Source of the DNA: Saprospiraceae bacterium
GTDB lineage: Bacteria; Bacteroidota; Bacteroidia; Chitinophagales; Saprospiraceae
Direction: 5' to 3'
Assembly (NCBI GenBank): GCA_015490715.1
Contig: WFXH01000061.1
Span: 1-39,645, forward strand
DNA length: 39,645 nucleotides
In this document: positions 15,776 to 21,510 of the stretch, piece after piece
Numbering within the stretch: position 1 is the first letter of the stretch
Layout of the letters: each line of letters begins with the position of its first letter
Program-made: the position numbers and the translations under genes
Notes under the pieces: generated by a model
Seen by the model: the letters and a program-made list of their open reading frames with translations, nothing else
What the model was told of the DNA's origin: nothing
Database searches by the model: none

Positions 15776-18643
15776 CTACGATTGTTCCTTGAAATAATAG
15801 GCTTCGTCGACTGGGCGTAGCGGTCTTTTGAGCCACAGAGGACGCCGCAATCCATTGGGTCCTGGAGCAGGGCGCGTCATTTTCAGCCACTCTCGGTACA
15901 CTTCCATCGACTTATTGGTATCGACGACGACATCGCCGTACTTGTCGTTGGGTCCGGGTTTTTCGATGCGGGCACGTTGGAGCCATGCGTGGTGTCCGCT
16001 CACCGGATCAGGGTGGACTGCATGGGTGAGGTTTTGGTGCACGCCGCCATCGAGCCAGAAGATGCGCGCGCTGTCCTTATCGCTGCTCTTAAACGGACGG
16101 ACGCTCTCCACGGGCGACATTTTCCAACGGCCCTTGCCATCGTGTTCAATCTGCACGACATTGGACAACCAGCGATTGCCCGTATCCTGCTTTCGACGCC
16201 ATCGGCCGAGGTGATGGGAGCACGCTACCACACCGGGACGTATCGCATGGGTCACCCACACGCGATCGACAAAATGGCCGATATCGGTTACGATTTTCAC
16301 CAAATCACCCGTTTTAAATCCGTATTTTTTGGCATCGTCGGGATGCATCCAGATGGGGTTGCGATGGGCGATTTCGGCAAGCCACTTGGCATTGGCCGAT
16401 CGCGAATGGATGTGGACTGGCAATCGGAAGTTGGGCAGCAAGACATACTCGCCCTCCTTGAGATTGTCGCGGTGGATATGGCTCTTGATATAGCAGGGCA
16501 AGGCATACTCAGGCCATTTCCAATCGACCATAGTTTGGGAATAGAGCTCATTCTTACGCGACGGCGTCGGAAACCCGACGTAGGCTTTGCCGTCGACCAT
16601 CACCCCTATGGCCTTGCCATCCTTGTATACGACATCCGTCTCAGGATCGACGGTGCTTCCTTCGAGCTCTTCTTCTGTAAGAGGTTTGAGATGCTTGTTG
16701 TACGAGGTCTTTTCGACTTCAAAGGCACCGTATTTGCGCATGTACTCCAGCTCGGCAAACGGCCCTGTAAAGCCGGCCTTCTTCGCCGCTTCGGGCAGCC
16801 CCGGGACGCGCTCGAAGATGTATTGATAATACTCGTCGATGGTAATTTTTTCGCCCTCGCGATAGGGGGAGATAAACTGCTCGCGGATGCCGAGTGAGCC
16901 ATCGGGATCGATTTTCCAGGAAAGCTCGATCCAAAATTCGTCCTCTTCCCAAACTTCGCCGGGGTTGACTTCGTAGGTAAAACGCACCTCTTTGCCCATG
17001 CGGCGCGCTGCTTCGCGCAACACGGGTTGGCGAAAGGCAATCCACACGCCATTGTGGGTCTCGTAGCTGTTGAGATCGTGGCGTTCGGAGGCGTGTCCCA
17101 TGGGTAAGACGTAATCGGCAAAGTAAGCCGTTTCGTTCCACGTAGGCGTCAGCGCAATGTGCATGCCGATCTTCTCCTCATCGAGGAGCATTTCAATCCA
17201 CGAAAATCCATCCGGATAGGTCCATACGGGATTGAATACCCGTGTAAAGTACACATCGATGCTGCCGCGCCCCTCCTTGAGCATGTGCGGAAGGATAAAG
17301 CTCATCTCAAAATGCGCCAGGGGATATTCCGGCGGAAAATGGAGCTCGTTCCAAACCTTAATGGGGGGCGGCACTTTAAAGAATTGCGGTTTGAACTTAT
17401 TCCACGCGTTGGGGCTTGTACCTCCACGCGTACCGACACTGCCCACGAGTACGCAAAGGAAATGCAATGCACGCGAAACGGTCCAGCCCCCGAGATTGCC
17501 GATCGAGGCCGAACGCCAGGTATGCGTAGCAAAACGCGTCCCGGCGCGAGCGATTTCATACGCAATCTCTCGGATGGTTTCGGCCGGAATGCCGCTCTCC
17601 TTGGAAGCAAATTCCACAGTAAAGTCCTTGTACTCGTCGATGAGACACTGGATGAAGACATCGAAGTCGAGCGGTTTGTCGGGATGCCGCGCCTTCATAT
17701 ACTGCTTCCAATTGACCCAATTGCGCATAAATTCCCTGTTGTACAGCCCCTCTTCGAGGATGATCTTGGCCCATGCCAGCATCACGGCCACTTCGGTGCC
17801 GGGATAGGTGGGTAGCCAGTAATCGGCCATCGAAGCGGTGTTGGACAGGCGCGGATCCATTACACAGAGCTTTGCCCCCTTCATCTTTCCTTCGATAATG
17901 CGCTGCGCATGAGGGTTGAAATAGTGACCGGATTCGAGATGGGCAGAGATGAGCAGAATAAAGCGCGCATTGGCGTGGTCGGGACTTGGTCGGTCGTAGC
18001 CATACCAAAGGGCATATCCCGTACGTGCGCCGGCCGAGCAAATATTGGTGTGGCTGTTGTGGCCATCGACGCCCCAGGCCTGCAAGACGCGATTGGCGTA
18101 GCCCTCATGGCCAGGCCTTCCGACGTGGTAGACTACCTTGTCGCGGCGACCTGCCAAGAGGGATTGGCGTATGCGTGCTGCTATTTCATCGAGGGCCTGC
18201 TCCCAGCTGATGCGCTCCCACTTGCCCTCACCGCGTTTGCCCTTGCGCTTGAGTGGATAGAGGATGCGATCCGGGTCTGTTATTTGATTGATCGTCGCAG
18301 GACCTTTCGCACAGTTGCGCCCACGACTGCCGGGATGGTGGGGGTTGCCCTCAAACTTGACCACGCGCATTTCTTCGCGGTCGATGTAAGCCGTCAGACC
18401 ACAGGCAGACTCACAATTAAAACACGTCGTGGGCACCAGCATATAGCGCTTTTTGCTCGGCGCAGGCCAGCTACGACTATCCAGGACCTCCAAATCATCC
18501 CAATGCGAAATATCGGGATACGGCTTGAGCTCGCCACCGTCCGAATATCGCGGCACCTTTGTGATAGTATCTGTTTTCAATTCGGGTATGATGCCCACTT
18601 TTTCGGCTACGCGCTCAATCCAACTCTTTTTCTTCACCGACAT
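15776..18643 (-). CDS. Molybdopterin oxidoreductase catalytic subunit (Psr/Phs/Soe-like, cytoplasmic)
   Basis: Catalytic subunit of a complex iron-sulfur molybdoenzyme (DMSO reductase superfamily), 955 aa. Seen: an N-terminal [4Fe-4S] motif with Cys74, Cys77, Cys81 and Cys111 (TTCFNCESACGL ... GRNCAKG); cofactor-binding motifs including GHNSHTNICSAGARTGY, where Cys202 could be the Mo ligand, and AKLCVMDPRLSNTASMADYW; and a C-terminal dinucleotide-binding region with NPIWMHPDDAKKYGFKTGD. There is no Tat signal: the protein starts MSVKKKSWIERVAEKVG, so it should stay in the cytoplasm. It is the second gene after an FeS-NrfD fusion, 46 bp away. Candidates by architecture are SoeA-like sulfite dehydrogenase or a polysulfide/thiosulfate-type enzyme working with quinone; the substrate is not determinable here. 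It is not the cofactor-free ActB of alternative complex III, because the pair lacks the other Act subunits. Confidence 0.88.
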   Translation of the reverse strand: MSVKKKSWIERVAEKVGIIPELKTDTITKVPRYSDGGELKPYPDISHWDDLEVLDSRSWPAPSKKRYMLVPTTCFNCESACGLTAYIDREEMRVVKFEGNPHHPGSRGRNCAKGPATINQITDPDRILYPLKRKGKRGEGKWERISWEQALDEIAARIRQSLLAGRRDKVVYHVGRPGHEGYANRVLQAWGVDGHNSHTNICSAGARTGYALWYGYDRPSPDHANARFILLISAHLESGHYFNPHAQRIIEGKMKGAKLCVMDPRLSNTASMADYWLPTYPGTEVAVMLAWAKIILEEGLYNREFMRNWVNWKQYMKARHPDKPLDFDVFIQCLIDEYKDFTVEFASKESGIPAETIREIAYEIARAGTRFATHTWRSASIGNLGGWTVSRALHFLCVLVGSVGTRGGTSPNAWNKFKPQFFKVPPPIKVWNELHFPPEYPLAHFEMSFILPHMLKEGRGSIDVYFTRVFNPVWTYPDGFSWIEMLLDEEKIGMHIALTPTWNETAYFADYVLPMGHASERHDLNSYETHNGVWIAFRQPVLREAARRMGKEVRFTYEVNPGEVWEEDEFWIELSWKIDPDGSLGIREQFISPYREGEKITIDEYYQYIFERVPGLPEAAKKAGFTGPFAELEYMRKYGAFEVEKTSYNKHLKPLTEEELEGSTVDPETDVVYKDGKAIGVMVDGKAYVGFPTPSRKNELYSQTMVDWKWPEYALPCYIKSHIHRDNLKEGEYVLLPNFRLPVHIHSRSANAKWLAEIAHRNPIWMHPDDAKKYGFKTGDLVKIVTDIGHFVDRVWVTHAIRPGVVACSHHLGRWRRKQDTGNRWLSNVVQIEHDGKGRWKMSPVESVRPFKSSDKDSARIFWLDGGVHQNLTHAVHPDPVSGHHAWLQRARIEKPGPNDKYGDVVVDTNKSMEVYREWLKMTRPAPGPNGLRRPLWLKRPLRPVDEAYYFKEQS

Positions 18644-18689
18644 TGCTCGTACGATTTTATGCTGTTAAAAAGGTACTTGCACATATGAA

Positions 18690-20273
18690 TTAACTCAAGG
18701 GTATGCGTTGGGGTGCTTCGACCCATATCTTGTCCGAAAGGTAAACGCCAATTAACACGCCTACGGCTGCAATGAGCAGCCCCACCGACTCGATACCGTA
18801 CCACCAGAGCACGACAAGGGGCAACAGATGCCCGATGAGGAGTACGCCAATCCAGAAGAGGCGGCTGTATCGCCCCGAATAGATCATTCGGGCGGTGCGT
18901 TTGGCATCCGCCGTCGGATGGGGAAAAGCTAAATCTACGAACATATTCAAAGCGCTCAACACCAACAAGACCATCAACAGGGTACGCAGAAAATCGAGCG
19001 CTTGCTTCGATATGGAGAACCCTATACCGATTATGAGCCACACTGCCGCACCAGCCAATAGGCTATTCAATAACATGTGTGCTATGAGGCTCGGACTCTG
19101 CCAGAAGTCGCGACCACGAGCCTGCGCAAACAAAAAGGCCGTATAGACGGCAACAAACACCGCTACCATGCCCGCTACAAACTTGGCCACGGGATACAAC
19201 TCACTTTTCACACCAATTAGGACAATCAAAAGCAGGGCCGTCAACACAGCACCAAACACGACAAGACCATATCCACCGCGTACCAACCAGGATTTCCACT
19301 GCGGTCGCAACAGTACGTACAAAAAGCGATCGGGACGATCGAGATCTTTGATCAACAGGGCTGTGGTGAGGCCCAAAAAGGCCAGTGAACCGGTCACACC
19401 CGCAATTTCTGTATTGATGCCGAGGTCGAATCCCATGAGGGACATCAGCGCCATCAACAAGATCAAGCCCGAGGCAATGGCCTTGGTCCAAATGTACCCC
19501 GATACTTCCCATCCCCAGAGTATGCCCTGGCGAGGTGCGGCATACGACACCTGTGTACCGTCGGCCTCCATGAGCTCAGCATCTTTTCGGGCGAGTTCTT
19601 CCAGGTACGATACGACATTGTCGTTGTCGAACGCGAGCTTTTCGGCATAGCGCGCATAGTGTCCCACGCCTAAATCCTTACTCGTCCAGAAGTCCTCTCG
19701 GGACTCGACGGGCAGAGGGGAGACGGAGGCCTCGTCGGCTTCGATGTAGAAGAGTTTGGGGCGGGTATCCTTTTCGGGCTTACGCACCACCGTGGGATAA
19801 CGCGCTAATAGTCGGGCGATTTCAGAATTCGGATCGTCGAGATCGCCTGCAATGATGGCCTGTTCGGGGCAGACGATGACACAAGCCGGCTGCAAGCCCA
19901 TCTCCACCCTATGGGCACAGTAGTTGCACTTAGCTGCTGTCGATGTTTCGGGATCGATGTACAAGGCCTCATAGGGGCAAGCCTGCATACACGATTTACA
20001 TCCGATGCAGCGGCGATTATCAAAGTCGACGATACCGTCGTCACGGACGAAGAGGGCCTGGACAGGACAGATCTCCACACACGGAGCATCGTCGCAGTGA
20101 TTGCAACGCAAGACGGTAAAATACCTCCGCGAATTGGGAAATTCGCCCTTTTCGATGTACTTGACCCAGGTGCGATAGACTCCCACGGGGACCTGGTGCT
20201 CGGACTTACAAGCCACCGTACAGGCGTGACAGCCGATACACTTTCGGTTGTCGATTATAAATCCATATCGCAT
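18690..20273 (-). CDS. Four-cluster ferredoxin fused to NrfD/PsrC membrane anchor
   Basis: A 527-aa fusion that joins the electron-transfer and membrane subunits of a molybdoenzyme complex. Residues 1-190: 16 cysteines in four groups (CIGCHACTVAC, CNHCDDAPCVEIC, CIGCKSCMQAC, CNYC...PACVIVC), enough for four [4Fe-4S] clusters, as in PsrB/DmsB. Residues about 255-520: about eight hydrophobic helices of the NrfD/PsrC type that exchange electrons with quinone. There is no Tat or Sec signal before the ferredoxin part, which places the clusters on the cytoplasmic side, matching the leaderless catalytic subunit encoded next. A strong promoter lies upstream. The order FeS-NrfD then Mo subunit makes a two-gene operon. 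The direction of electron flow is not visible. Confidence 0.9.
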   Translation of the reverse strand: MRYGFIIDNRKCIGCHACTVACKSEHQVPVGVYRTWVKYIEKGEFPNSRRYFTVLRCNHCDDAPCVEICPVQALFVRDDGIVDFDNRRCIGCKSCMQACPYEALYIDPETSTAAKCNYCAHRVEMGLQPACVIVCPEQAIIAGDLDDPNSEIARLLARYPTVVRKPEKDTRPKLFYIEADEASVSPLPVESREDFWTSKDLGVGHYARYAEKLAFDNDNVVSYLEELARKDAELMEADGTQVSYAAPRQGILWGWEVSGYIWTKAIASGLILLMALMSLMGFDLGINTEIAGVTGSLAFLGLTTALLIKDLDRPDRFLYVLLRPQWKSWLVRGGYGLVVFGAVLTALLLIVLIGVKSELYPVAKFVAGMVAVFVAVYTAFLFAQARGRDFWQSPSLIAHMLLNSLLAGAAVWLIIGIGFSISKQALDFLRTLLMVLLVLSALNMFVDLAFPHPTADAKRTARMIYSGRYSRLFWIGVLLIGHLLPLVVLWWYGIESVGLLIAAVGVLIGVYLSDKIWVEAPQRIPLS

Positions 20274-20718: not shown

Positions 20719-21510
20719 ATGAAGAGCAAAGTGGCTACACGATTCATCCAGTGCATCGATTCGTTAAAGGACCGCGGCACGATTCGGTCTTTTCGGCAGT
20801 TTGCCCTCATGCTCGATTATCTTCCCCAGAGCTTGAGCGAGATCAAAAACGGCAAGCGCGATGTCCCCCTCAGTCTCCTGACAAGGGCCATTGAAACCTT
20901 TCAGCTCAATCCCATGTATCTCTTTCTCGGTATTGGCGAGCCCTTTCTCAAGGGGCAGCTCAAGGAAAATGGTGGCAGTAAGTTTTTGGCCGTGATCGTC
21001 GATTCCGACGGCCAGAAGCTCATCAATTGTATCCCCAAAGACCGATTTGCCGATTACGCTAAGATGCTCGACGACACCGATTTTCTCCTCGAGCTACCGA
21101 CACTGCGGTTGACGCATCCCAATTTACAAAAGGGCAATTACCGCGCCTTTGAAATGCCCGACAACTCGATGTCTCCCATCTTCGAAGAAAACGACATACT
21201 CGTCTGTAAAAACATCCCTCCCGTACTGTGGAATAAGAAGCTCAACGACAAAGACTGTTTCGTCGTCGTCACCAGGGAGGACGTTCACATCGGACACGTG
21301 ACCAACCGCATCTTGGAGGAGCATCTCCTGCTGGTCTATCCCCAAAACGATGCGGGCTCCTCTCACCAGGTGCCGACAAGTCAATTGCGGGAAATCTGGA
21401 GAGTCGAATTCCGCATCACCGACCGGTTCAACAACTTGGGGGAAATGCTGCACCTGTTGCAAAATCTCCTCAACAAGGCCAACAAGGTGCCCGACGAAAT
21501 CGTCAGTTGA
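20719..21510 (+). CDS. XRE-type regulator with S24/LexA-like C-terminal domain
   Basis: A 263-aa predicted DNA-binding regulator. Residues about 8-75 form a helix-turn-helix domain (SFRQFALMLDYLPQSLSEIK, then NGKRDVPLSLLTRAIETF). Residues about 140-225 resemble the S24 peptidase fold of LexA and phage repressors: FEMPDNSMSPIFEENDILVC places Ser150 where LexA has its catalytic Ser. The segment that should carry the catalytic Lys reads VTREDVHIGHVTNR and has no Lys, so self-cleavage is unlikely. The last 35 residues are helical. It is followed by topoisomerase IV subunit A with a 92-bp gap holding a strong hairpin. Target genes are unknown; a phage origin is possible but no phage genes are nearby. 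Confidence 0.8.
   Translation: MKSKVATRFIQCIDSLKDRGTIRSFRQFALMLDYLPQSLSEIKNGKRDVPLSLLTRAIETFQLNPMYLFLGIGEPFLKGQLKENGGSKFLAVIVDSDGQKLINCIPKDRFADYAKMLDDTDFLLELPTLRLTHPNLQKGNYRAFEMPDNSMSPIFEENDILVCKNIPPVLWNKKLNDKDCFVVVTREDVHIGHVTNRILEEHLLLVYPQNDAGSSHQVPTSQLREIWRVEFRITDRFNNLGEMLHLLQNLLNKANKVPDEIVS

Follow-up and report, generated by a model that had tools for sequence, protein, structure and literature searches.

A two-gene molybdoenzyme with a ferredoxin-NrfD fusion in a Saprospiraceae bacterium, probably a cytoplasm-facing sulfite:quinone oxidoreductase

Contig WFXH01000061.1 (positions 1 to 39,645) of the Saprospiraceae bacterium assembly GCA_015490715.1, hereafter the window, carries at positions 15776-20273 two genes for a predicted membrane-anchored molybdoenzyme. 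Both open reading frames (ORFs) are on the minus strand, as are all features of the pair given below; the gene for a 527-aa ferredoxin-NrfD fusion (18690-20273) comes first and is followed, after a gap of 46 bp, by that for a 955-aa catalytic subunit (15776-18643). The pair is a conserved candidate enzyme, ordinary in kind, and its spread, its partners and its inverted anchor are the interesting parts. A chance ORF or artefact was ruled out by the orthologues in several phyla.

The SoeA-like catalytic subunit was assigned from its ORF, Pfam domains, frame analysis and a structure model, and is a predicted molybdenum-bis-pyranopterin guanine dinucleotide (Mo-bisPGD) enzyme. Pfam placed Molybdop_Fe4S4 at residues 69-120 (18284-18439), the N-terminal [4Fe-4S] motif region, Molybdopterin at 126-527, and Molydop_binding, the molybdopterin dinucleotide binding domain, at 738-816 (16196-16432). 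C74, C77, C81 and C111 were invariant across 44 sequences, and the signature GHNSHTNxCS (residues 194-203; 18035-18064) was kept in the catalytic subunits of all 98 family loci, sampled as described below. The signature includes Cys202, the presumed Mo ligand, which is invariant in the family alignment and falls opposite Cys173 of Thermus PsrA, which we take to be the Mo ligand of that enzyme. With the cysteine placed by alignment, the subunit is thus predicted to have the build of a Mo-bisPGD enzyme, with an N-terminal 4Fe-4S site and a Cys ligand. The structure model had a mean pLDDT of 83.5, and its closest folds were ArrA (6cz7) first and PsrA after it.

The partner is a SoeB-SoeC-like fusion, recognised from its ORF, Pfam, hydropathy and an AlphaFold model, in which an N-terminal four-cluster ferredoxin part (residues 1-185; 19719-20273) is joined to an NrfD-type eight-helix membrane domain (residues 248-512; 18738-19532). 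Pfam gave Fer4_11 at 51-144 and NrfD at 248-512. The four 4Cys groups of the ferredoxin part are C12,15,18,22, C57,60,65,69, C89,92,95,99 and C116,119,131,135, and all 16 cysteines were among the invariant columns of 41 family members. Seven clear hydrophobic stretches were seen in the hydropathy plot, the last of which (478-512) could hold two helices, and the AlphaFold model had eight long helices between 255 and 522. The membrane half matched the folds of ActC and PsrC, while the ferredoxin half was poorly modelled (pLDDT < 50 over residues 12-137), so that the geometry of the weld was not usable. The best PDB matches by sequence were Thermus PsrA for the catalytic subunit and PsrB (2vpw_B) for the ferredoxin part. 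Among the NCBIfam models listed none reached its cut-off for either protein; the best for the catalytic subunit by E-value was PhsA, with 213.7 bits where 694 are required, TtrA scored 131.7 against 1750, and the best for the fusion was TtrB (211.5 against 416 bits, 25 of 49 families shown).

No twin-arginine translocation (Tat) signal precedes the catalytic subunit in the window, where the frame is open for 962 codons against the 955 called, which leaves room for no more than about 7 uncalled residues. A twin-arginine regular expression was applied to 95 of the 98 catalytic subunits in the family, leaving aside three that lack a start residue, and gave one strict match (L033) and two loose ones (L130 and L143). 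Those of L033 and L130 sit directly before the first cysteine and that of L143 lies in a charged linker; none precedes a hydrophobic stretch, and a credible Tat motif was thus found in none of the 95. As controls, the expression found PhsA and the Azoarcus homologue described below (strict) as well as DmsA and NapA (loose), and missed TtrA (TRRQWLK). A missed Tat signal was ruled out by the few spare residues of the frame together with the absence of a credible motif in the family. An earlier reading of the window from its letters alone (the sequence-only reading) had described a 527-aa fusion with four 4Cys groups and about eight helices beside a catalytic subunit lacking a Tat signal, and both descriptions were borne out, the former by the ORF, Pfam, the invariant cysteines and AlphaFold, the latter by the frame.

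The orientation of the NrfD domain was assessed by counting lysine and arginine residues in its loops, whose borders were set by eye on the window hydropathy and carried over by alignment. The family mean was 11.9 on the side of the ferredoxin part and the C-terminus and 0.86 on the opposite side, the first being larger in 84 of 84 cases; the two loop sets are unequal in size (about 80 and 32 window residues), which gives a neutral ratio of about 2.5 against the observed ratio of about 14. The order was reversed in Tat-exported homologues (ferredoxin side and other side 2 and 6 in Azoarcus, 4 and 10 in Sulfurovum, 4 and 7 in TtrC), these controls being few (n=3) and two of them coming from the plasmid homologues that stand closest to the family without belonging to it. 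The positive-inside rule would therefore put the ferredoxin domain, and its catalytic partner with it, in the cytoplasm, and the loop charges, together with Pfam and the fold matches, predict an enzyme that faces the cytoplasm on an inverted NrfD domain, with both termini and the ferredoxin on the cytoplasmic side. NrfD-like subunits are described as having their quinone site and their partners on the positive (P) side of the membrane, and the opposite has been hypothesised for SoeC (PMC8076601). No charge-based test of NrfD inversion was found in the abstract beginnings and selected passages searched, and the charge inversion reported here is a sequence-level test, the first known to us, of an orientation that was only hypothesised in the review PMC8076601.

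Orthologues of at least 69% identity were found in 21 of 60 genomes searched, which comprised the window's own (included in the 21) and others of the same genus, family and order; two of the matches were cut by contig ends and three were listed with one in-frame stop. The sister species (G001) carries the pair with catalytic subunits 98% and fusions 92% identical to those of the window. A scan of named genomes gave at least 560 relatives, of which the best 80 were used, so that the statistics lean to close relatives; taxon names are those of the record titles, mostly of metagenome-assembled genomes. Among these 80, the Bacteroidota and Chlorobiota were represented by Saprospiraceae, Flavobacteriaceae (Lutibacter, Gaetbulibacter), Cyclobacteriaceae and Chlorobiota including Chlorobium sp. 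N1, and other groups by Calditrichota, KSB1, Neomarinimicrobiota, Pirellulaceae, Acidobacteriota, Spirochaetia and Deltaproteobacteria. Plasmids of Thermomicrobium roseum, Rhodococcus jostii RHA1 and haloarchaea carry a catalytic homologue at 51-61% identity. The loci from named genomes, plasmids and related genomes make up the 98 family loci, after seven duplicates (L043, L044, L046, L048, L049, L053 and L057) had been dropped and the Tat-type loci L036 and L037 left out.

Where the sequence before the catalytic gene reached 3 kb or more (76 family loci), a fused B-C gene was present in 74; the remaining two (L076 and L127) had about 10 kb upstream, yet no B-C gene nearby. The ferredoxin-NrfD fusion is therefore the rule of the family as sampled. 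The fused and catalytic genes shared a strand in 84 of 84 cases and lay no more than 250 bp apart in 74 of these. A local gene fusion peculiar to the window was ruled out by the same 74 loci, and the sequence-only reading, which had taken the fusion to be unusual, is not supported on this point, polysulfide-reductase-like complex 3 (PSRLC3) likewise consisting of two genes according to a Prosthecochloris genome note (PMC5473276).

The neighbours of the pair in relatives point to sulfur oxidation. A sulfur gene lay within 10 kb of the catalytic gene in 64 of the 98 family loci, the counts being 40 for SulP, 37 for a persulfide dioxygenase-like (PDO-like) protein, 29 for rhodanese, 15 for YeeE, 11 for DsrE, 10 for a protein like sulfide:quinone oxidoreductase (SQR), 9 for TusA and 6 for TauE, with molybdenum cofactor (Moco) genes at 13; part of the rhodanese count comes from domains within the PDO-like protein, so that it does not stand for 29 extra genes. 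Restricting the count to loci flanked on each side by over 6 kb (n=59) left 41 with any sulfur gene, 25 with a PDO-like gene and 24 with SulP. A hand estimate from 74 full-length PDO-like copies (at least 51% identity) in about 268 Mb put the chance of such a gene near a locus at about 0.6% per 23 kb, and at less than 1% when distant copies were counted too. The PDO-like protein consists of a metallo-beta-lactamase domain and two rhodanese domains and, from these domains, would be a persulfide dioxygenase; it scored 60.7 against a cut-off of 625 with the NCBIfam equivalog for sulfurtransferase-dioxygenase (Blh). The SQR-like protein scored 231 against 525 with the type III SQR model, and the DsrE2 neighbour exceeded its NCBIfam cut-off (213.7 against 210). 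SQR matches with E < 1e-90 occurred in 13 of the 21 genomes that have the pair and in 8 of the 39 that lack it (hand count; Fisher p 0.002, uncorrected for kinship).

Individual loci add detail to these counts. Chlorobium sp. N1 carries orthologues of both genes, a 521-aa fusion (50% identical) and a 955-aa catalytic subunit (64% identical), and the genes that follow them encode, by Pfam, TauE, a protein resembling DsrC and a sulfite-reductase subunit with a NIR_SIR domain, the last of which, judged by its place, would be DsrA. In Rhodococcus RHA1 the pair is surrounded by PDO-like, DsrE/F, TusA and rhodanese genes, and the loci of Natrinema caseinilyticum and Halomicrococcus contain rhodanese, TauE and a Mo-cofactor guanylyltransferase.

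We consider it probable that the product of the pair is a sulfite:quinone oxidoreductase of the SoeABC/PSRLC3 kind, anchored in the membrane and facing the cytoplasm; this kind is already known, though little studied, and is spread over many ordinary bacteria and some salt-loving archaea. The SoeA-like subunit, which would hold Mo-bisPGD with Cys202 as ligand and a single 4Fe-4S cluster, would convert toxic sulfite to sulfate in the cytoplasm. From that cluster, electrons would be relayed by the four in the ferredoxin domain of the fusion and delivered to a quinone site in its NrfD domain, and this domain would lie upside down in the membrane relative to Ttr-type enzymes. In relatives, the enzyme would finish an SQR-persulfide dioxygenase route, leading from sulfide through persulfide and sulfite to sulfate, with export by SulP or TauE. 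The cytoplasmic orientation, quinone link and likeness to Soe sulfite dehydrogenase that the sequence-only reading had proposed are supported by the loop charges, the Chlorobium orthologue and the neighbourhoods.

Of the systems already described, PSRLC3, reported as an alternative means of sulfite oxidation in green sulfur bacteria (PMC6338057) and a putative sulfite oxidizer of the SoeABC type, is alike in having two genes. Four Chlorobiota loci (L133, L142, L143 and L145), all fused, encode B-C proteins of 517-523 aa and catalytic subunits of 952-955 aa, the latter 64-65% identical to that of the window. The Chlorobium sp. N1 pair agrees with PSRLC3 in gene count, is adjoined by dsr-type genes and may be the published PSRLC3 locus. 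In contrast, the host of the window is a Saprospiraceae relative in whose own genome no dsr gene was found, and many relatives of its pair have PDO-like and SulP genes alongside instead of reverse Dsr. The SoeABC enzyme of Allochromatium vinosum and Aquifex aeolicus shares with the window pair a cytoplasmic catalytic subunit with a Cys ligand, a four-cluster ferredoxin and an NrfD anchor, whose inverted orientation is hypothesised for SoeC (PMC8076601) and predicted from charges in the window family. PMC10100899 places SoeABC in a substantial bSreA/SoeA lineage and gives it a cytoplasmic position and a Cys ligand; its genes are called universal in phototrophic sulfur bacteria (PMC8232776). SoeB and SoeC, however, are separate subunits in PMC8076601, whereas they are fused in the window.

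PsrABC, PhsABC and TtrABC are built of the same modules and are given as periplasmic in PMC10100899, unlike the window enzyme, for which a cytoplasmic position is predicted. The PhsA and TtrA rows start with twin-arginine stretches and TtrB and TtrC are separate genes, whereas the window pair has neither feature; it shows neither the Tat export, separate B and C subunits and PhsA clade of PsrABC/PhsABC, nor the TtrA-type subunit with a Tat signal of TtrABC. An NrfD-type membrane domain is also shared with alternative complex III, ActC being among the best fold matches. ActB, by the account of PMC10100899 a fusion that has kinship with ArrA and ArrB and has lost the Mo cofactor, differs in that the window keeps the Mo-ligand Cys and a separate catalytic subunit, its fusion being one of ferredoxin and NrfD; the catalytic-ferredoxin fusion lacking a Mo ligand that marks alternative complex III was not seen in the pair.

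Two trees were made, one of 66 rows and one of 29 chosen from them, by quick searches without bootstrap and with several very long outgroup branches; their rows include no ActB, PsrA, bSreA or characterised SoeA. In both, the family and a Sulfurovum row came together in a single supported group that includes the Chlorobiota rows, and PhsA, TtrA, DmsA and NapA fell outside, PhsA and TtrA standing on another branch. The phylogeny that the sequence-only reading had proposed as its check, made here with PhsA and TtrA rows, sets the family apart from both. These trees bear on an unlikely alternative, that the pair is a cytoplasm-facing sulfur or polysulfide reductase like bacterial SreABC, which would use quinol electrons for the intracellular reduction of sulfur, polysulfide or thiosulfate. 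Such a role would agree with bSreA and SoeA forming one lineage, both cytoplasmic and with a Cys ligand (PMC10100899), and with PhsA being the best NCBIfam match by E-value, though far under its cut-off. It is opposed by the separation of the family from PhsA, TtrA, DmsA and NapA in trees that hold no bSreA row, and by the relatives' neighbours, which would use oxygen (PDO-like) or reverse Dsr to make sulfite and would transport sulfate or sulfite (SulP, TauE).

The fold match of the catalytic subunit to ArrA (6cz7), above PsrA, could instead suggest another oxyanion as substrate, such as arsenite, selenite or nitrogen oxides, with the sulfur neighbours being incidental. We regard this as very improbable: sulfur genes recur near the pair in unrelated phyla and in haloarchaea, five annotated family neighbourhoods name no arsenic gene but ArsR-type regulators, and the ArsR-type regulators found near 11 of the 98 loci match one from a sulfur cluster.

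Several observations weigh against a sulfite:quinone oxidoreductase. No sulfur marker was found within 10 kb in 34 of the 98 family loci, some through contig ends, and eight of the marker-free loci (L033, L121, L127, L134, L137, L138, L141 and L147) are flanked on each side by some 10 kb or more. The window and the sister species likewise have no sulfur marker within 10 kb, the sister contig stopping right behind the pair. PDO-like matches of some kind occurred in all 60 related genomes, with or without the pair, and therefore closeness, not presence, is the evidence. The trees contain no row of a biochemically characterised SoeA, and SoeA shares one lineage with the bacterial sulfur reductase bSreA (PMC10100899), so that tree placement alone would not fix substrate or direction. 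Finally, the window's own genome (2.45 Mb, 98.6% complete, 115 contigs) gave no match to the NIR_SIR domain, and therefore none to DsrAB or an assimilatory sulfite reductase; nor were found in it a SulP, a cysteine dioxygenase, a match to the SQR query (other SQR types were not searched) or a full-length PDO-like protein, for which there were three weak matches (best E 7.8e-9).

No SUOX-family enzyme was found in the own genome either, and the lithotrophic or anaerobic capacity that the sequence-only reading had thought the pair might reveal is not borne out by the NIR_SIR, SUOX-family, full-length PDO-like, SQR-query and SulP searches (apr, sat and sox were not searched). Lithotrophy of the window organism is thus unsupported, while the biochemical role of the pair is supported by the family. 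The search for accessory genes proposed in the same reading found no dsr and did find Moco synthesis, in a cluster encoding MoeA, a ThiS-family (MoaD-like) protein, a ThiF-family protein, MoaE, a MoaC-MoCF domain fusion and MoaA. The other PF00384 protein of the genome is, by its domains, NuoG, a complex I subunit. A single xanthine-oxidase-family molybdoprotein of 800 aa is also encoded (L161, G000:C59:17314-18066); 250 aa of it were tested, the best models being glyceraldehyde dehydrogenase and CO dehydrogenase, far below their cut-offs, and an AYRCSFR-type motif was not found. Its presence ruled out Moco synthesis solely for the enzyme studied here.

The same absences suggest a refinement of the sulfite-oxidising role rather than its replacement, namely that in the window lineage the chemistry would be unchanged and would serve only to detoxify incidental sulfite, coming from outside, from thiosulfate sulfurtransfer or from organosulfur breakdown, and not sulfide oxidation. 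We judge the chances of this to be nearly even, slightly on the lower side. The own genome, lacking full-length PDO-like, SQR, SulP and DsrAB matches, has two TauE and six rhodanese matches, and the catalytic subunit is almost unchanged in the sister species, with sulfur neighbours at neither locus. The sister species nevertheless retains a PDO-like protein, and its absence from the own genome may be an assembly gap, other dioxygenase and SQR types not having been searched.

The Tat-exported systems of Sulfurovum mangrovi (L037) and Azoarcus KH32C (L036) have homologous A, B and C subunits, and that of Sulfurovum keeps SHTNICSAG and SHHxGRW; they differ from the window pair in their Tat signal, separate B and C, TorD chaperone and opposite NrfD loop charges. 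The twin-arginine stretches, RRTFLK and RRSFLK, are found in Azoarcus and in frame upstream of the Sulfurovum gene. The Sulfurovum catalytic row, which is partial and on a long branch, fell among the family rows in both trees; constraining the family to one clade gave a tree only 0.25 log units worse (approximately unbiased test, p-AU 0.43), so that a family clade excluding Sulfurovum was not rejected. The Sulfurovum enzyme is possibly a periplasmic mirror image of that of the window. On the Sulfurovum mangrovi plasmid (L037 4084-9169) the record divides the catalytic gene between reading frames, and the Azoarcus KH32C megaplasmid (L036 6245-14136) carries a Tat-type A (33% identical to the window's), B, C, TorD and an extra 4Fe-4S protein, not far from arsenite efflux genes.

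Tentatively, and thinking it rather more apt to fail than to hold, we propose jointly that the family is an overlooked last step of oxygen-dependent sulfide oxidation (SQR, persulfide dioxygenase, this enzyme, SulP/TauE) in heterotrophs of many phyla and haloarchaea, and that it arose from a Tat-exported quinone-linked molybdoenzyme turned inside out. The catalytic subunit would have lost its signal, the ferredoxin would have been welded to NrfD, and the NrfD loop charges would have swapped sides. If this is true, one type of active site is found on both faces of the membrane, outside in Sulfurovum and inside in the window family.

The sulfite produced by persulfide dioxygenases needs a sink. 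In a 2025 survey of Bohai Sea sediment, pdo transcripts rose in twenty phyla, including Bacteroidota and Calditrichota, the direct sulfite oxidizers SoeABC, SorAB and SUOX were rare or absent, and the step was assigned to Sat-AprAB (PMC12345210). A fused two-gene Soe beside PDO-like genes in those phyla, scoring under every listed NCBIfam cut-off, is a candidate direct route that may have been overlooked. In the abstract beginnings and passages searched, no paper was found to describe, for Bacteroidota or other heterotrophs, the fused pair with persulfide dioxygenase and SulP as neighbours.

At locus L126 (5729-14677, Bacteroidetes KatS3mg041) a compact version of the whole route is laid out on one strand, in a row of a regulator-like small ORF, an ORF that clusters with PDO-like proteins, a TusA-like and a DsrE-like gene, the fused B-C gene, the catalytic gene and SulP. 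In the window itself, a 263-aa ORF (20719-21510) that looks like an XRE/S24-type repressor adjoins the pair divergently, and it also does so in the sister species (L042 5986-6777).

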